Shown here in pieces: positions 34,022-51,299 of a stretch of 64,000 nt of DNA. A program made the translations under genes and the position numbers. The stretch's first letter is position 1; every line of letters starts with the position of its first letter. Below the pieces are notes generated by a model, which worked only from the letters and a program-made list of their open reading frames with translations, had not been told where the DNA came from and made no database searches. This DNA is from Gammaproteobacteria bacterium 53_120_T64 (lineage in GTDB: Bacteria; Pseudomonadota; Gammaproteobacteria; Pseudomonadales; Porticoccaceae): NCBI GenBank assembly GCA_002162815.1, contig MAAT01000067.1, positions 1 through 64,000 on the forward strand, given 5' to 3'.

Positions 34022-35398
34022 TCAGCTCGTCGCTGCTTTTAGTAAATCGTCGAGCATTCTGTCCAGGTGGTCGAGGGTGTTGCAGGTTTTGGCCATGTGG
34101 CAGTAGGGCTTGTATTTATACATTACCGAATCGCCGGCATTCCAGAAGGTCGTCGGCTCGGGGTTGAGCCAGATAACGCGTTTGGCGCGCAGGTGCAGGG
34201 TTTGCATCACCTCTGTGCGTGGAGCGAGGAAATTGTTGCGGGCATCGCCGAGGATGAGCACGGTGGTTTTGTTGTCGATAGCGTCCATGCACTGGTCTTC
34301 AAAGTCGAGCAGGGTGGTGCCGTAGTCGGAGCCGCCCATGCCGTGGTCGGCCATAATTTTGTCAATCGCCTGTTCAACCGGGTACTTCTCAAAAATATCT
34401 TTCACCGGGATTAGATTGCCAGTAAACACATAGCTATCGATGCGCTGCATGACGTCGTTGAGGCTGTGTAGGAACAGCAGCAGGAAGCGCGCATAGGACT
34501 GCACCGAGCCGCTAATATCGCACATCACCAGTAGGCGGGGTTTGTCGATGTACTTGGTCTTCCAGTAGGTTTCAAACATCACGCCGTCGTAGGCGACATT
34601 GCGGCGCAGGGTTTTGCGAAAATCGAGCTGGCCACGTTTGTCCTGCTTCTTCTTTTTTGAATACTGGGTGCTGAGGCGCTTCGCCATCTTGCGTACCAGG
34701 TCGTGCATGACGTGAAAGTCGCGCTGCTCGATATTCGATAGCTTGCTGCTCTTGAGGTGGTCTTCGCGCAGGTTGCGGGTGGCATTGCGCCCATACATAG
34801 ATAGCTGTTGCTCGACAAAATCTTTGACGCCCTCGGCCAGGAACTCTTTGGCATTTCTCAGCTCACCCGCCTGGGCAATACTGGAGGGGCAGTCGCCCTT
34901 GCCCATGGCGGCGATATCATTTTGCAGGTCGCGGAGGCCCATCTTCTGCATGATTTTCTGCGCATAGAGGCTCTTTTGGGTAAAAAACCAGATATCGGTG
35001 AGACCGACTTCGCGAGCGGCCTTCTTCATTTCGATGGCAAGGCTGGCGGTGTCGCCCTCCAGCAGCATTTTGGCGAGCTCTGATTGTGCCTGCGGTGCCT
35101 CGCTTTGGGCCTGTTGTGGCTCGCTTGCCTCATCGCTGGCGGAGGCTGTGTTGTTGCTGTGCGGGTCGTTGGCGGCGCTGAATGTGTCGAAGCTGAAGAA
35201 CTGCTCGAAACAATCGGCGACCAAATCTTGCTCGGTTTCTGATTTTGCCAGGCTGACCTGAAAGGCATTTTTCAGGATGCTGCGATCAGAATAGCCGACA
35301 AGGGCCACGGTACGGCTGGTTTCAATGGTATCGGAGGGCGATACATTGATGCCGGCTGCGCGGATGACTTTGTAAAAATCTTCGAGGGTTTGCTGCAT
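34022..35398 (-). CDS. VWA-domain CoxE-like protein
   Basis: A 458-residue protein. Its C-terminal half is a von Willebrand factor A domain with the MIDAS metal motif DISGSV (about residue 290) and matches the CoxE-like family (PF05762). The N-terminal part is helical with an acidic, Gln/Ala-rich linker. CoxE works with the AAA+ ATPase CoxD (MoxR type) to mature the copper/molybdenum centre of CO dehydrogenase; other MoxR/VWA pairs act as chaperones for metalloenzymes. It follows the MoxR gene by 56 bases. Confidence 0.87.
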   Translation of the reverse strand: MQQTLEDFYKVIRAAGINVSPSDTIETSRTVALVGYSDRSILKNAFQVSLAKSETEQDLVADCFEQFFSFDTFSAANDPHSNNTASASDEASEPQQAQSEAPQAQSELAKMLLEGDTASLAIEMKKAAREVGLTDIWFFTQKSLYAQKIMQKMGLRDLQNDIAAMGKGDCPSSIAQAGELRNAKEFLAEGVKDFVEQQLSMYGRNATRNLREDHLKSSKLSNIEQRDFHVMHDLVRKMAKRLSTQYSKKKKQDKRGQLDFRKTLRRNVAYDGVMFETYWKTKYIDKPRLLVMCDISGSVQSYARFLLLFLHSLNDVMQRIDSYVFTGNLIPVKDIFEKYPVEQAIDKIMADHGMGGSDYGTTLLDFEDQCMDAIDNKTTVLILGDARNNFLAPRTEVMQTLHLRAKRVIWLNPEPTTFWNAGDSVMYKYKPYCHMAKTCNTLDHLDRMLDDLLKAATS

Positions 35399-35454
35399 AC
35401 TGATTCCTCGCGAAGCGCCGCTGCTTGTCTTGGCCAGAGGCGCTTCGCTATCGC

Positions 35455-36405
35455 TTAGCGCCCTGAGCGCTTATGAGCCTTGTTAATAAAGGTGCGCAGG
35501 TGGTCGCCCATGGCATCGATATCGGTCTCAAATTTTAGCAGCACGTTGAGGGTCTGCTTCACCATCGCCGGCTCGAGTTGCTCGCTGTGGAGGAGGAGCA
35601 GGGTTTTTGCCCAGTCGATGGTTTCTGAGATTGACGGCACTTTCTTGAGGTCAAGTTCCCTCACTTGTTGCACGAAGCTGACCACCTCTTTGCGCAGGGT
35701 GTCGGAGAGCTCGGGTACACGGCTGGTCAAAATACGGCTTTCGAGCTTTTCGTCCGGGTAGGGTACATATAGATGTAGGCAGCGCCGCTTGAGGGCATCA
35801 CTCAGCTCGCGGCTATTGTTACTGGTGAGAAAAACCAGCGGCTTAATTTTCGCCTTGATGGTGCCGAGCTCGGGAATGGAAACCTGAAATTCGGAGAGCA
35901 CTTCGAGCAGGAAGGCTTCAAACTCGGGGTCGGACTTGTCCACCTCATCAATTAGCAGTACACAGCCGAGTTCTTCGTGCAGCGCCTTATAAAGGGGGCG
36001 AGGCTCGAGGAAGGCTTCGGAGAAGAAGAGGTCGTCGTGGTTGTGGATACGTTCCATCGACTGTTCGAGCCCACTGGCACCCTCTAACAGTTCGCCGAGC
36101 TTGTCTTTTAAAAGCTGGGTATACAGCAGCTGCTTGGCGTATTTCCACTCGTACAGTGCCTTGGACTCATCCAACCCCTCGTAGCATTGCAGGCGAACTA
36201 AGGGCACGTCGAGGATTTGCGCGGTGGTCTTGGCGAGTTCGGTTTTACCGACACCAGCGGGACCTTCGACCATCACCGGTTTTTGTAGGTTGTGGGCGAT
36301 GTAGACACAGGTGGCGATCTGCTCGCTACAAATGTACTGAGCGGCTTCAAAGCGTTGCTGGATATCGTCTACCGAAGTGAATTTGTCTTTATAAAGTTCT
36401 TTCAT
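35455..36405 (-). CDS. MoxR-family AAA+ ATPase
   Basis: A 316-residue AAA+ protein with Walker A GPAGVGKT (residues 48-55), Walker B VLLIDEVDKSD (about 149-159) and sensor I FLTSNNSRELSDALKRRC. The MoxR class chaperones cofactor insertion, usually beside a VWA partner, exactly as here. An acyl-CoA dehydrogenase gene lies 37 bases upstream in the same direction, so the three are likely one operon. Confidence 0.9.
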   Translation of the reverse strand: MKELYKDKFTSVDDIQQRFEAAQYICSEQIATCVYIAHNLQKPVMVEGPAGVGKTELAKTTAQILDVPLVRLQCYEGLDESKALYEWKYAKQLLYTQLLKDKLGELLEGASGLEQSMERIHNHDDLFFSEAFLEPRPLYKALHEELGCVLLIDEVDKSDPEFEAFLLEVLSEFQVSIPELGTIKAKIKPLVFLTSNNSRELSDALKRRCLHLYVPYPDEKLESRILTSRVPELSDTLRKEVVSFVQQVRELDLKKVPSISETIDWAKTLLLLHSEQLEPAMVKQTLNVLLKFETDIDAMGDHLRTFINKAHKRSGR

Positions 36406-37934: not shown

Positions 37935-38729
37935 ATGGCTAGAGAAAATACTCAATCCATTGCTTTGGACGGTAGCGCAGACAGCAAGGTTGCCGGGCAC
38001 TTTAAGCGCAATCGTTTTGCCTATGTATTTGGAGCAATTGTTATTGCTGCAGGTACTGCTATTCGAATTTATTTGGATACTATGGGTTTCACCGTTGGTA
38101 CCGATTACTACTCCGAGGAGTTTCAGAAGTACTGGATGCCTGTTCTCTACGGTGAGTTGATTCTCCTTAGTTCGTTTACCATTATTCTTTCTGTCTATTG
38201 CTGGATGACCCGCGAAACCGATGCCAGCAGTATTAGTAAAGAGTTGGAATTGAGCCGTTACTGGAAGTTGCTCGGTATCTTTACCGTGATGGGTATCTGG
38301 GCCGGTTGTGTTGCCTCTAACGCCGTTGAGTCCGACGCCGCTTGGCACCAGGTGACGATTCGGGATACCGATTTCACGCCAACTCACATTGTCATCTTCT
38401 ATTTTGCACTGCCATTTTTGACGGCCATGCTGATTCCTGCCTTTATCTGGACTCACACGCGTATCCCCGCCTACATGAACAAGATCTCCGTGCCTTTCCT
38501 GGCGGTTGTCTGCGGTATTTTGATGATTATGCCTAACTATGGCTTTAATGAGTGGGGTCACACCTTCTTCTACGCTGAAGAGTTGTTTGCGGCGCCGATC
38601 CACTACGGCTTTGTATTCTTAGGTTGGTCCTTGTTCTTCTTGGTGCCACTGGCGATGCAGCTGATTGGTAACATGGCTCGTCTGATTGCTGAGACCACAG
38701 CGGAAGATTACAATCCCGCAGCCGAGTAA
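37935..38729 (+). CDS. Copper membrane monooxygenase subunit C (PmoC/AmoC-like)
   Basis: Integral-membrane subunit of a CuMMO, 264 residues, about six helices. Both metal triads of PmoC are intact with the exact spacing of the methane enzyme: Asp134-x3-His138-x12-His151 (in SDAAWHQVTI and PTHIVIF) and Asn205-x3-His209-x13-His223 (NEWGH and PIHYGF). These correspond to the CuC and CuD sites. The ATG is chosen by family N-terminus and AGGGGT nine bases upstream. First gene of the C-A-B set; a hairpin with a T run separates it from subunit A. Confidence 0.95.
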   Translation: MARENTQSIALDGSADSKVAGHFKRNRFAYVFGAIVIAAGTAIRIYLDTMGFTVGTDYYSEEFQKYWMPVLYGELILLSSFTIILSVYCWMTRETDASSISKELELSRYWKLLGIFTVMGIWAGCVASNAVESDAAWHQVTIRDTDFTPTHIVIFYFALPFLTAMLIPAFIWTHTRIPAYMNKISVPFLAVVCGILMIMPNYGFNEWGHTFFYAEELFAAPIHYGFVFLGWSLFFLVPLAMQLIGNMARLIAETTAEDYNPAAE

Positions 38730-38848: not shown

Positions 38849-39643
38849 ATGAGTGAAGCACAATCCACAGGGCTGTCAGACGTAGAAGTTAAGGCAAGGC
38901 AACTTGACCTTAAGTCTCTCGACAATCCGCGGGCAATGAAGTTATACCGTCGCTTTGACGGCATTATTATTCTTGTCTTATTTACCTTCCTGGTGCTCGG
39001 TGTGCAGATTCAGTTCACCCTGACTGCCGGTGACTGGGACTATTGGATCGATTGGCGAGATCGTCGTTGGTGGCCTCTAGTGGCACCCTTTTCGTTGTTG
39101 TTGTTTATCGCACCCTTTACCTACGGTATCTGGGAGCGCGTACGTCTGCCGATTATGGCAACAGCTGTCACGACCTTGTTGTGCCTGGTGTCCTGGTTGA
39201 GCCGCTACTTGAATTTTTACGAGTTCACCCACTTTCCCTTATCGTTTACCTTTCCGTCGACCTATATCGGTCTCGGCATATTGCTGGATTGTGCCTTGGC
39301 GATTAGCCGCAGTCTGATTGTTTCAACCTTGATCGGCGGCGGATTGTTTGGCGCCTTGGTCTACCCGATAAACTGGTCCTTTATGGCGCCTTACAAGGTG
39401 CCTGTCGAGTTTAACGGTATGTTGATGTCGGTAGCTGACATGATGGGTTATCAATACATTAGAACGACGACGCCTGAATACCTGCGCATTATCGAGGAAT
39501 CTACCCTGCGTACCTTTGGTGGGTCGGTGACGCCTTTGACCGCTGTGTTTTCGGCCCTGTGTGGGATGGTGGTTTATGCGGCCTTCCTGTGGGTTGGTTA
39601 CAAGATTAACGGCCTGGATAAATTCACCAAGCGCATTGTTTAG
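38849..39643 (+). CDS. Copper membrane monooxygenase subunit A (PmoA/AmoA-like)
   Basis: A 264-residue membrane subunit with about seven helices. GDWDYWIDWRDRRWWP (from residue 61) is the family signature, matching the region used for pmoA/amoA primers, with Tyr replacing the usual Phe in GDWDFW. The C-terminal MLMSVADMMGYQYIRT and TPEYLRI are clear PmoA/AmoA-family segments. Full length. Phylogenetically this is outside the classic methanotroph and ammonia-oxidiser sequences by my reading, closer to hydrocarbon types; a tree is needed. Confidence 0.94.
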   Translation: MSEAQSTGLSDVEVKARQLDLKSLDNPRAMKLYRRFDGIIILVLFTFLVLGVQIQFTLTAGDWDYWIDWRDRRWWPLVAPFSLLLFIAPFTYGIWERVRLPIMATAVTTLLCLVSWLSRYLNFYEFTHFPLSFTFPSTYIGLGILLDCALAISRSLIVSTLIGGGLFGALVYPINWSFMAPYKVPVEFNGMLMSVADMMGYQYIRTTTPEYLRIIEESTLRTFGGSVTPLTAVFSALCGMVVYAAFLWVGYKINGLDKFTKRIV

Positions 39644-39665: not shown

Positions 39666-40916
39666 ATGAAAAGATTAATAGCGAGAAAAACAGGTCTCAC
39701 GGCGTTGCTGGCTGGCCTGGTGATGGTTTTACTGGCGGGCGATGTCATGGCCCACGGTGAGCGAGCGCAATTGGCGAGTATGCGTATGCGTACCGTCCAT
39801 TGGTTTGATACCAAGGTAGAGCCTTTGAATGTAAAGGTTGGCGATATCGTTACGGTAACGGGTAAGTTGGTGACCTCCGAGTGGTGGCCCAAGCATATGC
39901 CCAGCATTGAGGAGACGGTGTACCTGAATATCGGCGTGCCGGGTCCAACCTTTCTGAGGTTGCACTCTGAGGTTAATGGTGTGCCGATGATGCGCTCTAC
40001 AGCTTTCCCTTTGGGTAAAGTCTATGAGTACAAAACGGTACTGCGGGCACGTATTGCCGGCCGCTACCACGTTCACCCCATTTTAAATGTTAAGGATGCG
40101 GGTTCTCTGGTCGACAAGGGTACCTGGTTGGAAGTGGCGGAAGCTGACGATGGCGCGCCGTTCGTCAACGAAATTACCACTTTGACCGGTGAAACGATCA
40201 ACTTGGAAACCTACGGTTTGGATGGGGTTTTTACCTGGCACTTGATCTGGATAGCAATGGGTGTCGCCTACCTACTGTATTGGCTGATTCGTAAAGAGCT
40301 GTTTATACCGCGCTTTATTCGTATTCGTCATTTGGGCAGCGATCGGGCCAATGAGCTGATGACCAAGAAAGACTTTGTGGTGAGTAGTTTGTTTTTTACC
40401 GTGTCTTTGGCTTTGATACTCGGTGGTTACCTTTGGGCGGAACACAAATACCCCATTACCATTCCCTTGCAAACGGGCTTGGTAGAGGTTGAGCCGATCG
40501 ATATTCCGACGGGTGGTCTGGAGGTTGAGGTGGATCACGCGACTTATGATCTTGCGGGTCGCAGCTTAAGTATGCAGTTACAGTTGACCAACAATAGTGC
40601 GGGCCCACTGCGCATTGGTGAGTTCTTAACCGCCAACATTCGCTTCCTGAACCCGGATGTTAATGAGGGTGAGATTTACGAAGGCGAAGAAATGGTCTCT
40701 AAAGATGGTTTGACTGTCTCTGTCGATACGATTCAACCGGGTCAAACGGTCGATGTGGAGTTAGTTGCTTCGGACGCTTTGTGGGAGCAATATCGTATGA
40801 CCGGTTTGATTCATGATCCGGATAGCCGTTTTGCCGGTATGATCTTCTACTACGATGAGAACGGCGAACGATTTTTCCAGGAAGTGGGTGGCGCAGTACT
40901 CCCGAACTTCTTTTGA
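39666..40916 (+). CDS. Copper membrane monooxygenase subunit B (PmoB/AmoB-like)
   Basis: A 416-residue subunit with a signal peptide cleaved after GDVMA, exposing His30 as the mature N-terminus (HGERAQ). With His135 and His137 in GRYHVHPIL it rebuilds the CuB site, equivalent to His33/137/139 of the Methylococcus enzyme. His45 (RTVHWFD) matches one ligand of the bis-His site, but its partner is missing (GKLVTSEWWP). Two transmembrane helices follow near residues 190-208 and 230-252, then a second cupredoxin-like periplasmic domain. Start 22 bases after subunit A. Confidence 0.95.
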   Translation: MKRLIARKTGLTALLAGLVMVLLAGDVMAHGERAQLASMRMRTVHWFDTKVEPLNVKVGDIVTVTGKLVTSEWWPKHMPSIEETVYLNIGVPGPTFLRLHSEVNGVPMMRSTAFPLGKVYEYKTVLRARIAGRYHVHPILNVKDAGSLVDKGTWLEVAEADDGAPFVNEITTLTGETINLETYGLDGVFTWHLIWIAMGVAYLLYWLIRKELFIPRFIRIRHLGSDRANELMTKKDFVVSSLFFTVSLALILGGYLWAEHKYPITIPLQTGLVEVEPIDIPTGGLEVEVDHATYDLAGRSLSMQLQLTNNSAGPLRIGEFLTANIRFLNPDVNEGEIYEGEEMVSKDGLTVSVDTIQPGQTVDVELVASDALWEQYRMTGLIHDPDSRFAGMIFYYDENGERFFQEVGGAVLPNFF

Positions 40917-40954: not shown

Positions 40955-41599
40955 ATGTTGGCGAGACAGGTAGCACGAACTTTTCGATCTATAATTTCAA
41001 GTTTGATCATGGTTTGGGTGGCCTGTGGCGCCAGCACCGTATTTGCTCACGGGGGTGTGTCGGTAGAAGATGATGTATGTCTTATTAAGATCGATAGATA
41101 TAAAGCGCATTTTACCGGCTATCTACCTCGGGAGAGAGCAACCCAAGAGTTTTGTGAAGATATCCCGATAGCCACCCAAAGTATTTTTGTTATCGATTAC
41201 ATCAGTGATGAACTGCGTGAGATGGAGCTTGATTTTCGCGTGATCCGCGATGTCAATGAGCTCGGTGTTACCGCAGTTCTCGCCGATCTTGGTGGTGAAG
41301 AGGCCATAAAGGCGGCGACGGTTTACTACGCTGAGCCCAAGCGTTATCACAAAGGGGTGATGAATATTCGCCACACCTTTACGCAGAACGGCGGCTATAT
41401 TGGTATTGTGAATGCGAACCACTTGGAAACGGGCCTAAAATATACGTCGGTGTTTCCCTTTTCTGTGGGGCAGGTTAGCTACGCTAATTATATCCGTTAT
41501 TTCCTCGCCCTATTTGCGGCATGTGGCGTGTTTATTTATGCAGGCGGTCGCGGTCTTGTTTTTAAGGTTAAGCCACCACGTAGTGGAAGGCGAGCTTAG
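40955..41599 (+). CDS. Membrane-anchored periplasmic protein with HGG mature N-terminus, candidate monooxygenase accessory
   Basis: A 214-residue protein 38 bases after subunit B. Its signal peptide ends VFA, leaving mature His32-Gly-Gly, an N-terminal histidine like that of subunit B and of copper-brace proteins. Cys42 and Cys67 could pair; further His residues sit at 132, 140 and 156. A single C-terminal helix (about 178-198) with a basic tail would anchor it in the inner membrane facing the periplasm. The architecture resembles PmoD/AmoD-type accessory proteins but I see no clear sequence identity. A role in copper delivery is inference. Confidence 0.6.
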   Translation: MLARQVARTFRSIISSLIMVWVACGASTVFAHGGVSVEDDVCLIKIDRYKAHFTGYLPRERATQEFCEDIPIATQSIFVIDYISDELREMELDFRVIRDVNELGVTAVLADLGGEEAIKAATVYYAEPKRYHKGVMNIRHTFTQNGGYIGIVNANHLETGLKYTSVFPFSVGQVSYANYIRYFLALFAACGVFIYAGGRGLVFKVKPPRSGRRA

Positions 41600-41611: not shown

Positions 41612-43294
41612 ATGACACGGCTGTATCAAGTATTTATTTTATTATTCTTGCTGCTTATCTTTGCAGCATTGACACCCTGGCAGTGGTATCCCCGAGATTG
41701 GCGCGTTTGGTATGCGGATAATTTTGGGGCCAGTGCTTTTCAAGAGCAGGCGGCAACGATTCCTGCCATTTCTAGCGATAATACGGAAGAGGCTTGTCCG
41801 CCCGATATCAAGGGTTGGCGCAAGGCGCAAACGATCGCGGGCATTGATGTTTCGGCCTCTTCCAATTGCCTTGCCGACAATCCTCATGCGGTAGCGGCCT
41901 TTGTCAAGGGTACCAACAACGTCGGTCATATGACCTTGATGAAGTCTCGCTTGTCCCCCGATGCGGTGGTCAAAGGGCGAGATCTCGATGGCGATGGTGA
42001 CCCGGACGAGATTCATATTCGTCTCGAGGTGTTCGAGTTAAATGGTGGGTCGCCAGATCTCAATGTGCCAGTGACACAGTACGCCATTGCCCCCGGGGTG
42101 ATGCCGGGCCTTTGGGTGTTTGCACCAAAATCGGCCGGTATGTCAACCGAAAATTTTGAGTCGCTAGTGGCGCAGCCGGGTTTGCGTCTACCCTCTCCGG
42201 CGATACGTGTCGAGCAGGGCGACAAGGTTATTGTGACCCTCGAAAACACCCACTATATGCCCCATACCATTCACTTTCATGGCGTTGACCACCCTTTTCA
42301 AACGGCCAGTGGTGAGGGCAATGATGGGGTGCCAGTAATGAGTGAAATGCCGGTAATGCCGGGCCAGCAGCGCAGTTATGAAATGCAGCCGCGCCAAGCC
42401 GGCACCATGTTTTATCACTGCCATGTCGAGGTGCAGGCCCATGTCTTAATGGGTTTAAATGGTATGTTTGTGATCGAGGAAAATCGCCCGAATAACTGGG
42501 TGCAAACCTTTAATATTGGCGATGGTTTTGTGCGTCACAGTTCGGTGGCGGTGAAGGAAGAATACGACCGCGAATACGACCTGCACTATCAAGATCTCGA
42601 TAAAGAGCTGGGTGCGAAAATTCAGCAAACCAACGACCCGCGCCTGGTAACTCAGCAGATTCACCGCGAATACGATATTAGCCAAGCCGATTTTGAATAT
42701 TACACTCTCAATGGGCGCTCCTTTCCCTATACGGCAAAGGACTCGCTGATCGTCACCGCGCCGAATGAAAAGCTCAAGTTGCGAGTGCTCAACGGTGGTA
42801 GCGAGGGTGTGGCGATACACACCCACGGTCATAAAGTGACGATCAGTCACTACGATGGTGTTGAGCATCCCGAGCCCGCGCGCATTACCCGCGATGTGGT
42901 GTGGGTTGCCTCGGCTCAGCGAGTGGATCTGGAACTTTCCACCGTAGATGATGGCCTCCACAGCTATGGTGAGGGCGTTTGGCTAATGCACGATCATCAA
43001 GAGAGGGGCGTGACCACTGATGGTTTTGGCCCTGGTGGTAATGTCAGTGCCATTGTTTACGAGCGTTTCCTGCAGGATGACGGCTGGCCGATGACCTTCG
43101 GTATGGCTTGGAAAAATTTCCTGACACCGGGTTTTTACCAGCGTCAGGAAGATGGCTCTGGGGTGACAGCGTTGTTGCCGGGCGTAGAGGCTAGCGGCCC
43201 TTCGAGTTGGCGCTTGTTCGCCATGGCTATACTCGCCGGCCTATTTGTTGGGATCCTTATCAGCTGGATACTAAAGGGAAGGTCTAATGTTTAG
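41612..43294 (+). CDS. Membrane-anchored multicopper oxidase
   Basis: A 560-residue multicopper oxidase with helices at both ends (residues ~7-20 and ~534-552) and a periplasmic body. Copper motifs: HTIHFHG (218-224), HCHVEVQAHVLM (269-280) carrying a complete type-1 Cys-His-Met set, HTHGH (403-407), and HDH (460-462), where the usual cysteine is Asp. The type-1 site is therefore in the first, not the last, motif pair, unlike three-domain laccases. DLDGDGDPDE (124-133) looks like a calcium loop. It may oxidise Cu(I) or feed electrons; the gene overlaps the next by eight bases. Confidence 0.87.
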   Translation: MTRLYQVFILLFLLLIFAALTPWQWYPRDWRVWYADNFGASAFQEQAATIPAISSDNTEEACPPDIKGWRKAQTIAGIDVSASSNCLADNPHAVAAFVKGTNNVGHMTLMKSRLSPDAVVKGRDLDGDGDPDEIHIRLEVFELNGGSPDLNVPVTQYAIAPGVMPGLWVFAPKSAGMSTENFESLVAQPGLRLPSPAIRVEQGDKVIVTLENTHYMPHTIHFHGVDHPFQTASGEGNDGVPVMSEMPVMPGQQRSYEMQPRQAGTMFYHCHVEVQAHVLMGLNGMFVIEENRPNNWVQTFNIGDGFVRHSSVAVKEEYDREYDLHYQDLDKELGAKIQQTNDPRLVTQQIHREYDISQADFEYYTLNGRSFPYTAKDSLIVTAPNEKLKLRVLNGGSEGVAIHTHGHKVTISHYDGVEHPEPARITRDVVWVASAQRVDLELSTVDDGLHSYGEGVWLMHDHQERGVTTDGFGPGGNVSAIVYERFLQDDGWPMTFGMAWKNFLTPGFYQRQEDGSGVTALLPGVEASGPSSWRLFAMAILAGLFVGILISWILKGRSNV

Positions 43295-43952
43295 GGCCTG
43301 CACTCAGCGCCTATTATCGCCCTTGCTGGGGCTATTGATAAGCCTGCCGGGCTTTGCGGCCAGCAGCCACCAGCATCACATGCCGGGTATGGTAATGGAT
43401 GCTACGGGCATGGTGATGGGGGGTAATAGCGATCAGTTACCCGAGGACTGTCAGGCTATCTCTGCAGAATACGAGTTTACCGTGTTGGCGGGAACGCGTT
43501 TCGCCGAGCCGTATGCGGCGACAGCGTTTGGTTTTGATCAGCATCAATGGCAGGTTAAGCCTTGTAGTCGGATTACCATTAATTTCAAAAATGAAGATGA
43601 CGTGCGCCACCAGTGGATGCTCCACGGTTTGCCGAAGTATCTGTACGATCGAGGCATGTTTCATATGGAGGCCTCCGGTGGTTTTGCGCAAACCGGAACT
43701 TTTATTGTTCCGAGTGATAATAAAACCTACCTCGTGCATTGTGATATTGCCCAGCATATGGAGAAGGGTATGAAGGGGCAGTTAATTGTTGGCACTGGTA
43801 GCGGTGATCTTTGGAGTATCCCGGGCGTCACTGCAGATTTTCAGCGGGAAAGGGTGTCACTCGATAATGGTCAAAAAATAGGCTTGCTATTGTCGGCCCT
43901 ACTGGCAGCCCTTGCAGGTTTTATAACAATAAAAAAATTCGCCAAAAAGTAA
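43287..43952 (+). CDS. Membrane-anchored cupredoxin with His/Met-rich N-terminus
   Basis: A 221-residue plastocyanin-like blue-copper protein. After the signal peptide, a His/Met-rich stretch (SHQHHMPGMVMD) offers copper storage. The type-1 site is HQWMLHG (His108) plus C152-x4-H157-x4-M162 in HCDIAQHMEKGM. A C-terminal helix (about 197-214) anchors it. The start overlaps the multicopper oxidase, so they are made together, and the pair probably exchanges electrons or copper. Whether it reduces the monooxygenase is unknown. Confidence 0.84.
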   Translation: MFRACTQRLLSPLLGLLISLPGFAASSHQHHMPGMVMDATGMVMGGNSDQLPEDCQAISAEYEFTVLAGTRFAEPYAATAFGFDQHQWQVKPCSRITINFKNEDDVRHQWMLHGLPKYLYDRGMFHMEASGGFAQTGTFIVPSDNKTYLVHCDIAQHMEKGMKGQLIVGTGSGDLWSIPGVTADFQRERVSLDNGQKIGLLLSALLAALAGFITIKKFAKK

Positions 43953-44259: not shown

Positions 44260-46686
44260 TTGGAGACTGCACGCTACCGTCTGTCGAGATATGTCATACA
44301 TCATCGTTGGGCATCATTGCTGGTTTTTCTGGCTTTGACTATTTTCTTTGCCGTAGGTATTAGTCGGGTTGAATTGAAAACGATCTTTTCCGATTTGTTA
44401 CCCAGTACGCATCCTTTTGTGCAAACTTATAAAGACCACCCTAACTTTGGTAACCCCCTGACCGTTACGGTGATGATCAAGCGCACCGATGGTGAGTCCA
44501 TTTATAACCCCGAAACCTTGCAAAAAGTTTGGGATATGACTCGCAATATCGATTTGATTGCCGGCGTCGATCACGACCAGATTCTCTCTATCACCACTGA
44601 AAAAGCCCGCTATGCTCAGGCGACGCCCTTTGGTATCGATAGTCAGCCGCTGATGGGTGACCACTCGCCACAGACCGAAGCGGAAATGGCTGAGTTTTTA
44701 GAGCGCGTCAAAAAATCACCGGGTAGCCGTGCCTTCCTTATCTCTCACGATGAAAAAGCGACCATTATTCAGGCGACCTTTATTGAACGTCTGCTCGATT
44801 ACGGCGTGGTGTTTAACGAAATTCAGGAAAAAATCATCGATGCTGAACGCGATGATGCCCACGAGATTCATGTTGCCGGGCAGCCAGTGTTGACGGGTTG
44901 GGTGTACTTCTATGAAAAACAAATGCTGCAGATTTTTGGCATAACAGGCGCGGCGCTGTTAATTTCATTATTCCTGTATATGCGCAATGTGGTTGGCATC
45001 GTTGTGCCAGTGGTGACCAGTGTGGTCGCTGCGATATGGGGCTTCGGTTTTGTGGGCTGGCTTGGCGACCCCATCGAACCACTGATTATGGTGGTGCCGA
45101 TATTGCTAGTCGCGCGTTCGTTTAGTCATGCGGTGCAGTTTATCGAGCGCTATTATGAAATTTACTATCACGTTCAGGATAAGAAAAAGTCGGCAGAGAT
45201 CTGCATGAGCGTGATGATGGCGCCTGGCATACTAGGGATTGTTACCGATGCCATCGGCCTGTTCTTGATTGCCATTGCACCGATACCGACCATGGAGCGT
45301 TTTGCCGTCTTTTGCGGATTCTGGGCTCTGATGCTGGTCCCCACTGGCGTATTCCTGACGCCCATCTTGTTATCAATGATGCCCAAGCCGAAAAACGTCA
45401 ACCAAATCATTGGTCTTGATGGCGATCATGCGCTTATTCATGCGGGCATCAAGCACATGTTGCAAAAGGTCAGCAAGCTAAGCTTTGGTCCCCCCGCAAA
45501 AATAACGACCGTCGTGGTTATTGTGCTGTCGGTCTTCGGCCTGTCAAAAATGCTCGAGTTAAAAATCGGCAACCCGGTAGCGGGCAGTAATCTGCTGTGG
45601 AGTGATTCAGAGTACAACGTCGCCATTGCCGAAATTAATAGTCACTTCCCGGGCTTGAACACCCTGGAGATTATTTTTGAAGTGAAAGAACAGACGCAGC
45701 AGCGCTTGCTCAAGCAGGCCGATCCCATCTTTAAGATGACGGAGCTGCAGCGCATCGTTGAGAGTAGTGACTTCCCACCGGTGGCAACGCTGTCGTTTGC
45801 CGATTATTTACCCGAGGCCAACCGTCTGTTCAGTGGCGGTAACCCGAAGTGGGCACCCTTGGATCACAGCGATATGGCGGTGCAGGCCGCCTCCGGTGCG
45901 GTGCTCTTTGGTACCAGTCCGAAGGCCTTTTCCCATGTCACCGACTTTGTACAGCAGAATGGTACGGTTTCTCTGTGGTATAAGGATAACAAGCAGGAAA
46001 CTGTCGATGCGGCCCTGGAATCTGTGCGTGCGGCCCTCGATGAAATTGGCATCGATCACGATAATTACCGGGTTCGTCTCGGCTCCGGTACGATCGCACT
46101 GCAGCAGTCGATTAACGATACCGTCGACCTCTACCAGTGGTACATACTTGGTGCCCTAAACCTGGTTATCTTGATCAGTTGTTCGTGGGCCTACCGCTCA
46201 TTAGTGGCGGGTGTTTTGCTTTTGATACCGGTCAATATGTCTAATGTTTTTCTGGCAATGTCAATGGTTTATATGGGTGTTGGCCTCGATGTCAATACGC
46301 TGCCAATTGCCGCCATCGGCATCGGTGTGGGTATCGATTATGGCATTTACCTGCTGAGTCGAATCTGTGAGGAATACCAGGGCTTTAAAGACTACGGCAA
46401 AGCCATCTACGCCGCCGTTGCCACCACCGGTAAGGCCATCTTCTTTACCGCGGCCATTGTCCTGATCGGCATCCTGCCCTGGTACTTTATGTCCGAGCTG
46501 AAGTTCCTCGCCGATATGGGGCTGCTGCTGGTGATGGTGATGTTGATCAATATGGTTATTGCCCTGATCGTCGTGCCGCTGTTGGTGTGGTTGATTAAGC
46601 CGAAGTTTGTTAGTTCGGAAGATCTTCTGGTCGGCGAAGGTGTCGATCTGTCGGAGTATGCAGGAGGGGAAGAATCCCTCAAGTAG
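44260..46686 (+). CDS. RND/MMPL-type transporter
   Basis: An 808-residue inner-membrane transporter with the duplicated RND layout: N-terminal helix, a large periplasmic domain, about five helices (residues ~225-375), a second periplasmic domain and five more (~620-790). GIGVGIDYGIYLLSRICEE is the typical proton-relay segment of MMPL/HAE2 proteins. These export hydrophobic lipids or sterol-like molecules. TTG start with AAGGGGA upstream. Its three downstream partners form a known linked set. Confidence 0.88.
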   Translation: METARYRLSRYVIHHRWASLLVFLALTIFFAVGISRVELKTIFSDLLPSTHPFVQTYKDHPNFGNPLTVTVMIKRTDGESIYNPETLQKVWDMTRNIDLIAGVDHDQILSITTEKARYAQATPFGIDSQPLMGDHSPQTEAEMAEFLERVKKSPGSRAFLISHDEKATIIQATFIERLLDYGVVFNEIQEKIIDAERDDAHEIHVAGQPVLTGWVYFYEKQMLQIFGITGAALLISLFLYMRNVVGIVVPVVTSVVAAIWGFGFVGWLGDPIEPLIMVVPILLVARSFSHAVQFIERYYEIYYHVQDKKKSAEICMSVMMAPGILGIVTDAIGLFLIAIAPIPTMERFAVFCGFWALMLVPTGVFLTPILLSMMPKPKNVNQIIGLDGDHALIHAGIKHMLQKVSKLSFGPPAKITTVVVIVLSVFGLSKMLELKIGNPVAGSNLLWSDSEYNVAIAEINSHFPGLNTLEIIFEVKEQTQQRLLKQADPIFKMTELQRIVESSDFPPVATLSFADYLPEANRLFSGGNPKWAPLDHSDMAVQAASGAVLFGTSPKAFSHVTDFVQQNGTVSLWYKDNKQETVDAALESVRAALDEIGIDHDNYRVRLGSGTIALQQSINDTVDLYQWYILGALNLVILISCSWAYRSLVAGVLLLIPVNMSNVFLAMSMVYMGVGLDVNTLPIAAIGIGVGIDYGIYLLSRICEEYQGFKDYGKAIYAAVATTGKAIFFTAAIVLIGILPWYFMSELKFLADMGLLLVMVMLINMVIALIVVPLLVWLIKPKFVSSEDLLVGEGVDLSEYAGGEESLK

Positions 46687-46724
46687 CGTGAATATGTCAG
46701 TGTTTTACAGGGTTTATAAAAAAT

Positions 46725-46751
46725 AGCCCACTAGTGTTTGTTATGTGGGCT
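46725..46751 (+). other. Intercistronic hairpin after RND gene
   Basis: AGCCCAC and GTGGGCT form a 7-base stem with a 13-base loop between the transporter and DUF1329 genes, with an A run before but no T run after. It may protect or process the mRNA. Confidence 0.4.
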
Positions 46752-46776
46752 GGAACTAGAATTAGGAGTATGGTTA

Positions 46777-48165
46777 ATGCACATTAAAAAGTATGATTTT
46801 GACTACAGCCGTCGGTTTTTTATGGACAAGATGGCCAAAGGCACCATGGGTGCAGGTGTTCTCACCTCATTGATGCCGTTGATCGGCAATACAGGTGATA
46901 TAAGTAAGGCCTACCCCGAAGAGCTGACCAATATTGAAGCTTTCACCAAAGGTAAGGTCAAAACCGGCGATATTATCGACGCGAACAATGTTGAATACAT
47001 TAAAGACTTAATCGACCCCGTCGCTTACCTGCAAATCACCCAAATGGGTCGCCGCATTCGTATAGCACCCACGACAACAGATGCCACAGAGTTATTCCCT
47101 AGGGATTATCTGGAGGCAACCTTGCGCAATCAGGGTAAGGGCGCTTTTGACGCCAACGGCAATGTTGTCCATAAGCTTGATGGCAAACCTTGGATTGGCG
47201 GTGCGGCTTTCCCCGACCCGCAAACAGGCCTTGAAGCCTTTGCCAATGTAACGATGAGCTGGGGTCGTCACGACACTGCTGTTTACGCCATTGAAGATAA
47301 TGATATTGGCCCCGACGGTGATATCGAATACTCCTACAACCTCGGTTGGTGTGAAAAGAACACCGTCGGCCTGGTCAGCAACCCCGATGGCCCCTATTGG
47401 GAAGGTCACGAAGATAAGTTGCGCTACCAGTCGGTTTGGTTTACGGCACCGAATGATGTTAAAGGCACCAGCTTCCTCAATATCTGGAAATACGATCAGC
47501 GCGAATTCCCCGATTTGTTTGGCTACCTGCCCGCCTTTAAACGCGTGCGTCGCTTCCCAACCAACCAGCGCTTTGAACCGTTGGTACCAGGTATTACTTT
47601 CTTCCTCTCTGATGCCTGGGGCGCTGGTGACCCCATGCTGACTTGGGGCAACTACAAGATTATTGGCCGTGGTCCCTTTCTGGGCTCTCAGTCAGGAACA
47701 TGGCAGGGCGATCAAGAAAATTGGTCGAAAGATGCAACTTTACACGGTGGTAAAAAGGGCCTTAACTTCTTTGAGGTTGACTTCCAGCTCTGCCCTGAAG
47801 TGCTCGTCATTGAAGCTGAGCCAGTTGGCTTCCCGCGTGCGCCAGTCAGCAAAAAGCGTATTTGGCTTGACGTGCGTAACATGGCACCTATTGGTTATGT
47901 AACCTACGACCGTCGTGGCGAGCTATGGCGTTCATTTGAGGTTGGCTATAGCCAGCAGAAGAAAGGTGACTTGGCCAACGTGGATGCTAAGGGTAATGCC
48001 GAGTGGTCCTGGTCCTACGTACATGCACATGACGTACAGACCAATCGCTTCTCGCGATTTAACCATGCTAAAAGTGTTAAAGGCGGCCTGCAAACGGCAT
48101 TTGATACCGAAGATGCCTACGACAAGTACCTGACCATTCAGGCTATTCGTCGTCTCGGTAGTTAA
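46777..48165 (+). CDS. DUF1329-family periplasmic protein with twin-arginine signal
   Basis: A 462-residue protein of the DUF1329 family, which has a LolB/LolA-like fold suited to hydrophobic cargo. Its N-terminus YSRRFFMDKMAKGTMGAG fits the Tat consensus (S-R-R-x-F followed by a modest hydrophobic stretch), so it is probably exported folded; most family members I know use Sec signals. AGGAG and the ATG at 46777 fix the start. Second gene of the RND-DUF1329-YCF48-DUF1302 set. Confidence 0.85.
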   Translation: MHIKKYDFDYSRRFFMDKMAKGTMGAGVLTSLMPLIGNTGDISKAYPEELTNIEAFTKGKVKTGDIIDANNVEYIKDLIDPVAYLQITQMGRRIRIAPTTTDATELFPRDYLEATLRNQGKGAFDANGNVVHKLDGKPWIGGAAFPDPQTGLEAFANVTMSWGRHDTAVYAIEDNDIGPDGDIEYSYNLGWCEKNTVGLVSNPDGPYWEGHEDKLRYQSVWFTAPNDVKGTSFLNIWKYDQREFPDLFGYLPAFKRVRRFPTNQRFEPLVPGITFFLSDAWGAGDPMLTWGNYKIIGRGPFLGSQSGTWQGDQENWSKDATLHGGKKGLNFFEVDFQLCPEVLVIEAEPVGFPRAPVSKKRIWLDVRNMAPIGYVTYDRRGELWRSFEVGYSQQKKGDLANVDAKGNAEWSWSYVHAHDVQTNRFSRFNHAKSVKGGLQTAFDTEDAYDKYLTIQAIRRLGS

Positions 48166-48185
48166 TTTAAAAAATCTAGACTGGA

Positions 48186-49172
48186 GTGCATGTGTTTAAT
48201 TTCAAATTGGTACGTCAATCAATACTAAGCGCTGCACTGTGCGCCGGCTTCTTGTCAGCCGGTGCCCTGGCTAGTGAGCCCCCCACGGGGGGCATGCTCG
48301 ACGTAGTGCATCAGGGCATTGTCCACGATGCACTTTACGATGTTTGTTTTCTCGGCCAGTCTGGGCTTGCCGTGGGTGTCGCAGGTTCAGTGTTGACCAC
48401 CGATGACGCCGGTTCTAGCTGGCAGAGTGGCGCCGTTGATGTGCCATATGCATTGCTAGGTGTCAGCTGTGGCCAGAAAGCCTCCATTGCCGTCGGGCAA
48501 GCGGGGCTAATTATGCGCAAAGAGGGTGATGCTGCCTGGGCTCAAGTCGATTCGGGTACCGACCAGCGCTTACTCTCCGTCAGTGCCAATGAGTCTGGAC
48601 TTGCCGTTATCGTTGGTGGCTTTGGCACCGTGTTGAAGTCTACCGATGCGGGTCAAACGTGGGCGCCCTTAAGTTTCGATTGGGAGGCCATTCTCAACGA
48701 TTTTTATGAGCCCCATGTCTATGACGTTAGCGTCGCTACTGACGGCATTATTACGTTGGTAGGTGAGTTCGATTTAGTGTTGCGTTCAGAAGATCAGGGT
48801 GAGACCTGGGCAACCGTCAACAAGGGCGATACATCGCTGTTTGCCCTGCACTACCGGGATGCCTCAACCGGCTTTTCGGTGGGACAGAACGGTAAGGTGG
48901 TGAAGACCGTTGACGGTGGTTTAACGTGGACGGTTTTGCCTGTACCGACGACAGAAAACCTACTGGATGTCTGGTCTTCAGGCAGTCAGGTCTTAGTCAC
49001 CGGTATTCGAACCCTGTTGCGCAGTCGCGACGATGGCCTTAATTGGGAAGTGATTACCGAGGGTGATGTCAGTGTTCAGTGGTATCAGGCCATTGAGGGT
49101 GTTGTCGGTGAGGCAGGTACCGATAGTGTCGTAATGGTTGGCCATTCGGGTCGTGTTATTAATATCAAATAG
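48186..49172 (+). CDS. YCF48-like beta-propeller protein
   Basis: A 328-residue secreted protein: signal peptide ending GALASEP, then repeated propeller blades such as VLTTDDAGSSWQ, VLKSTDAGQTWAPL, VLRSEDQGETWATV and VVKTVDGGLTWTVL, the BNR/YCF48 (PF14870) pattern. Plant HCF136/Ycf48 assists photosystem II assembly, but in this gene set the role is more likely a periplasmic scaffold in hydrophobic-compound transport. The GTG at 48192 is an alternative start with better spacing from GGAG. Confidence 0.82.
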   Translation: MHVFNFKLVRQSILSAALCAGFLSAGALASEPPTGGMLDVVHQGIVHDALYDVCFLGQSGLAVGVAGSVLTTDDAGSSWQSGAVDVPYALLGVSCGQKASIAVGQAGLIMRKEGDAAWAQVDSGTDQRLLSVSANESGLAVIVGGFGTVLKSTDAGQTWAPLSFDWEAILNDFYEPHVYDVSVATDGIITLVGEFDLVLRSEDQGETWATVNKGDTSLFALHYRDASTGFSVGQNGKVVKTVDGGLTWTVLPVPTTENLLDVWSSGSQVLVTGIRTLLRSRDDGLNWEVITEGDVSVQWYQAIEGVVGEAGTDSVVMVGHSGRVINIK

Positions 49173-49207
49173 TCTTGTCCGATCAAAAAATTCTAATGAG
49201 GTGCTAG

Positions 49208-49315
49208 CGTGGCGCAATGCCACGTGACGCCCAAGCGGTAGTTAATTTATAACGCCATATTTACAGCCCTATTAGGGCTGTCACGAGTTTTTGGGCGCGT
49301 CTTTTGCGCCTACTC
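49208..49315 (+). other. Cluster of hairpins upstream of DUF1302
   Basis: Three short dyads lie in the 186-base gap: CGTGGC/GCCACG (49208-49224), ACAGCCCT/AGGGCTGT (49263-49281) and GGCGC/GCGCC further on. None has a clean T run. They may separate the outer-membrane gene from upstream transcription or stabilise its message. Confidence 0.45.
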
Positions 49316-49358
49316 GTTATCGCATATTAATTATAAATTTTTCATTAGGAGGTTGGGT

Positions 49359-51299
49359 ATGAAGTATTCTTTAAGGGGTGCTGGCTTGCTGGCGCTGGCC
49401 GCGACACCGCTAGTAACACCGGTGGCATCGGCATTTGACTACACGGTTTCGGGTTTTATTCGCCAGGAAATGGCCTATAAGCTCAACAATAACGAGAACC
49501 CTAATTTACCGGGTGGCAATAGATTTAACGGACGAGATTATGTCACTAAGGGTAAATTGCTACCCCAAGGGCAAGTGATAAATAGTCGTAAGGATCGTTC
49601 GACAAATAACGATTGGAATGTCTTTGCTACAAAATCTGAAATTGATGTTAGTTTTAATTTCACTAGAAATCTCAGTGGCTTTGTTAAATTCCGCGGTTAC
49701 TACCAGCCCGACACATTTGATTTAGTTGACAAAAGTGGTTTTGTTGATGGTGACGGGGGCAAGCCCGATCTTTGGGGTGTGCCCAATCATGGTCGAGAGG
49801 CTACGCACCTGTCTTATAGTGACAATGATTACATGCTCGATATACCATCGCTGTATTTAGACTATGCTAAGGGGCCGTTGTGGGTTCGTATTGGCCAGCA
49901 GCAAATAGCCTGGGGTGAGTCGCTCTTTTTCCGGGTTGCCGATATGGCGAATGGCCTGGACTTCCGACGTCATTTTATCTTTGACTACGGGCCTGAAGAG
50001 TATGCCGATGAGCGTTTAGCTTCGCCCGGTATTCGCGCCAGTTATCAGCTCGACCAAAATTGGGAGCTTGAAGTCTTTGCGCAGATGTTCCAGCCCTCAG
50101 TGCTACCGACCAATTACTCGCCATACAATTTGATTCAAAGCGGATTCAATATGAATCAAGGCTATGAAGAGGGCTTCGATAAAGTCGATGATCAAATTAA
50201 TGGTGGTATTCGTCTACAGGGTCAAAACTTAGGTGAAGATGGCAGCTGGGGAGTGCAATTTTATGCAATTGCACGTCATAGCCCAACGCCGCTATTTACC
50301 CTCTCTGAATCCGGTGTGCCGAATGCGGCTTTTGGAGATCCGGTACTGGATCCTCAGGGCTTGGGCTTCGCTACCCAGCCTTTTATCTATGAACCCGGTG
50401 GCAAGGCTGGCACCGCCAGTCCTGATGAGTGGTTTCACAACGCCGCTATCGCTGGCTCGGATGGCCTCGATACCATCAACGGTTTGATAAACGACTTCGC
50501 CTGGATCAAAGGCTTCGCCGAGATCGGTTTAGGTATGTCGCCCGATGCCAACGGGGATTATCTGACCAGTATAAATGGCGATGGGCCCAATGGCATCAAT
50601 GGCACGGACTTCCTCGAGCTGTTTTGGCAGGCCGGTGTTCCAGGTGCTGTTACTCCTGAGGGCGGTGAGGCCGCGCTCAACCTTGCTCTGGGCGGTAATG
50701 CCTTAAGTGGAAATATGCGGGTGCGCTACGCCGCCGAAAACGTTTTCGGCTTTGGGGTGAATCATATTTTTTATGCTGAAGAAGACTCCTTCCTCGATCA
50801 GTTGGTCGTTCGTTTTGAGGCCAGCTATATACCCGATAGAAAGTGGACCAATAATCTTCGTCGCGATTATATTGAGGCAGATGATGTGCTGGCCAGCGTT
50901 GTATTTGAAAAATACCAGCGTTTCAGTAATGCTTTTCCGGCCACCTTCTTGATCTTTGAGTATATGTACCGCAAGGAGAGTGACTTGTTAGAGCGTCACC
51001 TTAGCGGGCTTGGCGCTAGTGCGACCAAGCGCCCGGGTGGTGGTGAGCAGGATCGTGGTTGGCATGGTGTTGTTCTCGCTTTTCAGCAGCCTTTTCCAGG
51101 TTTAAAGTGGCGTATCGATGGCTCTATTCTCTACGATCTTGAGGGTGGTTATTCGATACAGCCCTCGGTTCGCTATAAGCCTAGTGGAGATTGGACTGTT
51201 GAAGCCTTTGCTAACTTTATTGATGGTGGAACTGATGATTCACTGGGCGTATTTGACTGGTCTGATGATTTGACCTTTCGAATCACCTATCAATTCTGA
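49359..51299 (+). CDS. DUF1302-family outer-membrane protein
   Basis: A 646-residue protein with a signal peptide (ending VTPVASAFDY), then many aromatic, amphipathic strands and a final FRITYQF, a beta-barrel-type C-terminus. It belongs to DUF1302, predicted outer-membrane channels paired with DUF1329 in clusters for PHA, sterol or hydrocarbon use. Start fixed by AGGAGG and ATG 49359; TTG 49353 would also read. It ends the island; a strong terminator follows. Confidence 0.88.
   Translation: MKYSLRGAGLLALAATPLVTPVASAFDYTVSGFIRQEMAYKLNNNENPNLPGGNRFNGRDYVTKGKLLPQGQVINSRKDRSTNNDWNVFATKSEIDVSFNFTRNLSGFVKFRGYYQPDTFDLVDKSGFVDGDGGKPDLWGVPNHGREATHLSYSDNDYMLDIPSLYLDYAKGPLWVRIGQQQIAWGESLFFRVADMANGLDFRRHFIFDYGPEEYADERLASPGIRASYQLDQNWELEVFAQMFQPSVLPTNYSPYNLIQSGFNMNQGYEEGFDKVDDQINGGIRLQGQNLGEDGSWGVQFYAIARHSPTPLFTLSESGVPNAAFGDPVLDPQGLGFATQPFIYEPGGKAGTASPDEWFHNAAIAGSDGLDTINGLINDFAWIKGFAEIGLGMSPDANGDYLTSINGDGPNGINGTDFLELFWQAGVPGAVTPEGGEAALNLALGGNALSGNMRVRYAAENVFGFGVNHIFYAEEDSFLDQLVVRFEASYIPDRKWTNNLRRDYIEADDVLASVVFEKYQRFSNAFPATFLIFEYMYRKESDLLERHLSGLGASATKRPGGGEQDRGWHGVVLAFQQPFPGLKWRIDGSILYDLEGGYSIQPSVRYKPSGDWTVEAFANFIDGGTDDSLGVFDWSDDLTFRITYQF

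Follow-up and report, generated by a model that had tools for sequence, protein, structure and literature searches.

A PmoD/AmoD homolog with a conserved, predicted N-terminal histidine in a gammaproteobacterial CuMMO operon, and its oxidase-linked relatives

Gene Organization of the Locus

The window, that is, the whole analysed stretch of 64,000 nucleotides (positions 1-64,000 of contig MAAT01000067.1, assembly GCA_002162815.1, from Gammaproteobacteria bacterium 53_120_T64), carries an apparent operon of a CuMMO-type monooxygenase in the order xmoC-xmoA-xmoB-D-multicopper oxidase (MCO)-anchored cupredoxin (Table 1). The gene studied here, called D, lies directly 3' of xmoB and is the sole copy found in the 2.9-Mb assembly (93.6% complete). 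It encodes a 214-residue precursor for which a signal peptide ending in VFA, a histidine as first mature residue and a C-terminal anchor had been predicted from the DNA alone; the sequence, its conservation among homologs, the gene order and a modelled helix agree with that description. The parallel drawn with subunit B is also borne out, as the N-terminus of xmoB reads VMA/HGE by inspection (the slash marks cleavage), so that its mature chain would likewise start with a histidine, residue 30.

Table 1. Features of the CuMMO operon and of the D protein in the window (residue numbers of D are those of the predicted mature chain, except for the signal peptide)
Feature	Position	Strand	Basis
xmoC, CuMMO subunit C	37935..38729	+	PF04896, E 3.3e-59
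xmoA, CuMMO subunit A	38849..39643	+	PF02461, E 5.9e-74
xmoB, CuMMO subunit B	39666..40916	+	PF04744, E 1.8e-120
D gene, PmoD/AmoD homolog, 214-aa precursor	40955..41599	+	phmmer to 6CPD, E 1.3e-15; fold match, Z 17.5
Predicted signal peptide, residues 1-31, ending STVFA	40955..41047	+	sequence; -3/-1 rule in homologs
Predicted mature His1-Gly2-Gly3 (His1 codon 41048-41050)	41048..41056	+	conserved in homologs
Predicted periplasmic cupredoxin-type domain, residues 6-141	41063..41470	+	AF2 model aligned to 6CPD residues 38-163
Cys11, equivalent of CuA ligand Cys41 of 6CPD PmoD	41078..41080	+	alignment; invariant
His21, equivalent of His51 of 6CPD PmoD	41108..41110	+	alignment; 78/87 in wide set
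Cys36, equivalent of Cys65 of 6CPD PmoD	41153..41155	+	alignment; 87/87 in wide set
C-terminal helix, predicted membrane anchor, residues 145-168	41480..41551	+	DSSP of AF2 model; hydrophobic sequence
MCO, likely partner	41612..43294	+	PF07732, E 1.4e-25; PF07731; synteny
Membrane-anchored cupredoxin with Met/His-rich N-terminal stretch, likely partner	43287..43952	+	weak cupredoxin/PF07731 matches; HCx4Hx4M motif

Family Assignment by Sequence and Fold

The original prediction held the protein to be without clear similarity, which did not hold up, as a phmmer search of PDB sequences gave one match, the PmoD of Methylocystis sp. Rockwell (Met49242_1452, PDB code 6CPD), covering residues 40-172. 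Modelled by AF2, the mature chain has a mean pLDDT of 85.4 (74 over the first ten residues), and with this model Foldseek returned 6CPD as the best match (E 6.6e-12). The comparison with PmoD structures that had been proposed gave the same answer in VIA-align, where 6CPD was on top, with an rmsd of 2.1 Å over 126 residues, followed by a runner-up at Z 8.6. Since 6CPD is the best match by sequence, Foldseek and VIA-align, the D protein is judged, from its sequence and predicted fold, to be a true PmoD/AmoD homolog and more than an analogue; thus, the idea of a fourth, PmoD-like operon gene with a mature histidine was sound, and that of a protein merely analogous to PmoD was not. D also shows other traits of the family: a pair of strictly conserved cysteines (CxnC), a place in a CuMMO operon (typical of the family but not universal), a signal peptide (by inspection and homolog conservation) and a C-terminal transmembrane helix (modelled and hydrophobic). 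PmoD proteins are copper proteins anchored in the membrane, a family that is known yet little understood; their role in methane and ammonia oxidation is still unsettled (PMC6189053, PMC6688271).

Neither Pfam nor NCBIfam names a family for the D open reading frame, which may account for its having seemed unfamiliar. A Pfam match to ENCP4 is weak (E 0.11) and ascribed to chance, membership in CopC or PCuAC was discarded as no profile of these families matched in Pfam or NCBIfam, and CrdA came up only at Z values of at most 8.4, which lie within the range of unrelated beta-sandwiches.

Regarding the metal-site residues, Cys11, His21 and Cys36 form the motif Cx9HxnC, with a lysine where CuA-type PmoD proteins have methionine, and the motif of the CuA-forming subclass, Cx7MxHxnC, is not found in the alignment of D. 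The protein is accordingly classed, by its aligned residues, in the non-CuA subclass (Cx9HxnC) of the PmoD/AmoD family; published Cx9H members bind copper and form no CuA (Fisher et al.). Methylocystis PmoD resembles D in the two cysteines, the histidine at +10 from the first of them, the signal peptide, the C-terminal helix, the CuMMO operon, the sequence and the fold, whereas it starts with EGG and has the methionine of the CuA motif at +8, where D starts with HGG and has lysine. AmoD/AmoE proteins, such as L094 from a plasmid of Nitrosomonas sp. sh817, share with D the mature HG start, both cysteines and the histidine at +10, and L094 adjoins CuMMO subunit C, similar to the placement of D in a CuMMO operon. 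However, L094 and two others pair the N-terminal histidine with a CuA-type Met/His motif, the methionine of which D lacks. A pmoD-like ORF behind divergent pmoCAB genes, with low homology to (p)amoD, has been described in Pseudomonadales MAGs (PMC11830464); as far as its description allows a comparison, it has the operon position and order-level group of D, and the available passages of that report mention neither an N-terminal histidine nor oxidase-linked copies.

Conservation of the N-Terminal Histidine

The precursor has a basic n-region (MLARQVARTFR) and a hydrophobic stretch, then reads S-T-V-F-A/H-G-G, its cleavage position being predicted by inspection from sequence and conservation. 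Among 86 distinct homologs covering the N-terminal region, which are kin by descent so that the counts are not independent events, 78 have His-(Gly/Arg) 8-11 residues ahead of the first conserved cysteine, exactly 10 in 75 of them, and the residues before this histidine obey the -3/-1 rule in 76 of the 78. Both a cleavage site elsewhere and homologs without the histidine had been named as checks, and the former was answered in favour of the predicted site, the latter in favour of conservation, with exceptions in a few branches besides the PmoD crystallised from Methylocystis. The histidine is found in several lineages of gammaproteobacteria, on a plasmid of an ammonia oxidiser and on plasmids of methanotrophs. 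In addition, the invariant positions in 38 sequences (D and 37 relatives) include H1, G2, G3, V4, D9, C11, H21 and C36. A chance origin of a conserved histidine at such a cleavage-like site is not credible. A reading of the precursor as a lipoprotein, with the cysteine at -8 (VWVAC), was rejected, as the lipobox is poor and the cysteine is not conserved (L035 has ATVFA/HGG without it).

A conserved histidine right behind a cleavage-like site is what a mature N-terminal histidine of a histidine brace would look like in sequence, and His21 is a conserved candidate for the second histidine of a site of that type. Exposure of a metal-chelating histidine by signal cleavage has been described for the secreted DUF4198, DUF6702 and anglerase proteins (PMC12537917), where the two DUF families keep the N-terminal histidine at rates of 79% and 65%; the likeness to D, as far as the accessible passages go, lies in the exposed histidine and is one without shown homology, DUF4198 preferring nickel and the same passages leaving pMMO proteins unmentioned.

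The histidine is missing from two Methylocystis plasmid copies (L090 and L091), from the crystallised type and from a few other branches. One genome (G811) encodes eight PmoDs, of which L118 is the 6CPD sequence, following a signal peptide ending in SRA/EGG, and the paralogs L110, L111, L113 and L115 have an AxA/HG-type start. As some members, including the crystallised one, do without His1, not every PmoD can depend on it. In the work of Fisher et al., every construct had additional vector-derived Ser and Met residues at the N-terminus, and the 6CPD model starts at residue 37/38, so a native N-terminal histidine could not be probed there. Published protein work having thus dealt with a member lacking the histidine or with N-terminally extended constructs, this conserved candidate ligand has apparently gone unprobed. 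No discussion of an N-terminal histidine in PmoD was found in the open-access text searched, an absence that is not a proof.

The alternative that His-Gly-Gly serves structure or export and binds no metal, D being an ordinary PmoD that uses Cys11 and His21 only, is considered unlikely. It would agree with the lower model confidence over the first ten residues and with members that keep Cys11 and His21 without His1; however, export signals do not require a histidine at +1, and the exposed N-terminal histidines of the other secreted families, according to the passages cited above, have been shown to bind metal.

Association with CuMMO and Likely Partners

The order C-A-B-D is kept in nearly all homolog loci whose contig spans the region, and the MCO and cupredoxin genes usually come after D in the loci of relatives. 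Two cultivable relatives, Solimonas aquatica and Panacagrimonas perspica, are among those with C-A-B-D. Co-occurrence with CuMMO operons, which had been proposed as a check, was scored by subunit B (PF04744) in an order-level sample of 293 genomes: D is present in all nine genomes with subunit B, though also in 14 of the 284 without it (Fisher p 2e-11, kinship uncorrected). A phylum-wide profile search for D was positive in only 3 of 398 genomes.

The MCO homologs retain the four His-rich copper motifs in 28-29 of 30 sequences, and the type-1 copper motif HCx4Hx4M is present in 25 of 26 cupredoxin homologs. In the MCO of the window, by eye, an early motif reads HCH and the last one HDH, which would place its type-1 copper cysteine in the first domain, unlike in classical three-domain laccases. 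The Met/His-rich stretch of the anchored cupredoxin (HQHHMPGMVMDATGMVM) stands right behind the signal peptide and is similar in some relatives.

Homologs in Genomes without CuMMO

D homologs were found in 18 genomes without PF04744, 14 of them from the order sample, 2 from a class sample and 2 that encode L054 and L055; PF04896 (AmoC) is likewise absent from the 16 of these that were checked (order 14, class 2). An assembly gap was rejected as the cause, as the 14 order genomes are 97-100% complete, one of them (G224) being a single contig, as is G335 of the class sample. The D proteins of the 18 genomes group with four others, each a second copy in a genome that has CuMMO, in a clade of 22 (support 100/99), which is sister to the CuMMO-linked clade of the window and nested in the CuMMO-linked part of the tree. 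This tree is midpoint-rooted, with weak support at its deep forks, so the direction of recruitment can be read from it only tentatively.

Half of the clade (11 of 22: L096, L101-L103, L121, L122, L128-L130, L054 and L055) lies next to caa3-type cytochrome c oxidase genes; a further member, on a short contig, adjoins ctaB (heme o synthase). YtkA and/or MauG-like neighbours take the place of the oxidase in seven members, and three have no informative neighbour. Three genomes (G058, G119 and G062) carry one D beside CuMMO and another beside the oxidase. Two of the oxidase-linked D proteins are longer and are followed by MauG; L101, which was scanned, carries a fused YtkA. Another branch of the homologs (L098, L099, L101, L106 and L122-L126) adjoins, or in L101 is fused to, a YtkA-like domain and has a MauG/MbnH-like di-heme gene beside it. 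A replacement of CtaG by D was rejected, because 16 of the 18 genomes checked encode CtaG at another place; as this also applies to Sco (16 of 18), D would be at most a locus-specific factor, for the linked oxidase.

According to Fisher et al., PmoD belongs specifically to methane and ammonia oxidisers, 98.5% of a curated set being from CuMMO-encoding species; the homologs in CuMMO-free genomes extend or contradict this published view. The oxidase-linked relatives from such genomes would let PmoD function be studied without methanotroph genetics.

Proposed Function and Alternative Explanations

A copper chaperone, as first proposed for D, is a plausible role. In the favoured reading, D would be exported and cut before His1, with its cupredoxin-type domain facing the periplasm on the C-terminal membrane anchor, and the free N-terminal histidine would form a copper site with Cys11 and His21, perhaps also Cys36. 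D would take up periplasmic copper, aided by the adjoining MCO and anchored cupredoxin, which may set the redox state of copper or pass it on, and would deliver it, as the adjacent monooxygenase is assembled or repaired, to the copper sites of that enzyme, with related copies serving the caa3-type oxidase in the same way. Taken as a whole, with D as an exported, anchored Cx9HxnC PmoD that loads CuMMO and relatives that load the oxidase, this reading is moderately probable. Points against it are the members without His1, the CtaG and Sco genes found elsewhere in most oxidase-linked genomes, and the seven clade members that have YtkA and/or MauG neighbours in place of the oxidase.

One partner common to two unrelated copper enzymes helps to tell copper loading from electron donation. 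The caa3-type oxidase linked to D comes with a CuA domain and with cytochrome c as a fused part, which leaves no obvious need for a further electron donor there, and copper loading, being common to both linked enzymes, is the best single explanation; the linkage to both thus favours it over electron donation, and the oxidase-adjacent branch in bacteria without CuMMO hints at a general copper-loading role. More broadly, PmoD could be a wider anchored copper-loading family with the signal-exposed histidine as a ligand, one branch of which was recruited from CuMMO to caa3 (and YtkA/MauG) in CuMMO-free bacteria, an extension that we hold only tentatively, at somewhat less than even chances.

Electron donation to the monooxygenase, as its authors suggested for a CuA-forming PmoD encoded within such an operon, would suit the cupredoxin-type fold of D and the neighbouring MCO and cupredoxin, which could make an electron chain. 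It is quite unlikely for D, which has lysine at the CuA methionine position and belongs with members that make no CuA, and the oxidase beside its homologs brings its own electron-transfer domains. A structural fourth subunit, binding or stabilising the CuMMO trimer (or the oxidase) through the membrane helix with copper as incidental, is in line with the conserved C-A-B-D order, with the C-terminal helix and with stabilisation, which Fisher et al. listed among possible roles, but is decidedly unlikely given the strict conservation of the metal-type residues His1, Cys11, His21 and Cys36 and the copper proteins encoded next to it. Detoxification of periplasmic copper by D and the MCO, rather than service to an enzyme, is very improbable: the adjacent MCO gene and the CrdA structures, which come next among fold neighbours that have a copper role (Z 8.2-8.4, middling), are in its favour, and against it stand the linkage of D to copper enzymes and the published loss of pmoD in Methylosinus, which harmed growth only with copper present and pMMO in use, a result that alone fits either view.

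Flanking Genes

Upstream, the minus strand (34022-36405) has genes for a MoxR-type AAA ATPase and for a VWA protein that is CoxE-like. This pairing is known elsewhere from metalloenzyme maturation; as maturation factors here, the two were set aside, as they are kept in the six closest relatives only. The substrate of the CuMMO of the window may, as a guess from the lineages and settings of its relatives, be a hydrocarbon. Farther downstream of the anchored cupredoxin gene, a cluster at 44260-51296 encodes an MMPL transporter and DUF1329, YCF48/BNR-repeat and DUF1302 proteins; it recurs in part behind the operon in relatives and possibly has outer-membrane or hydrocarbon-transport functions.
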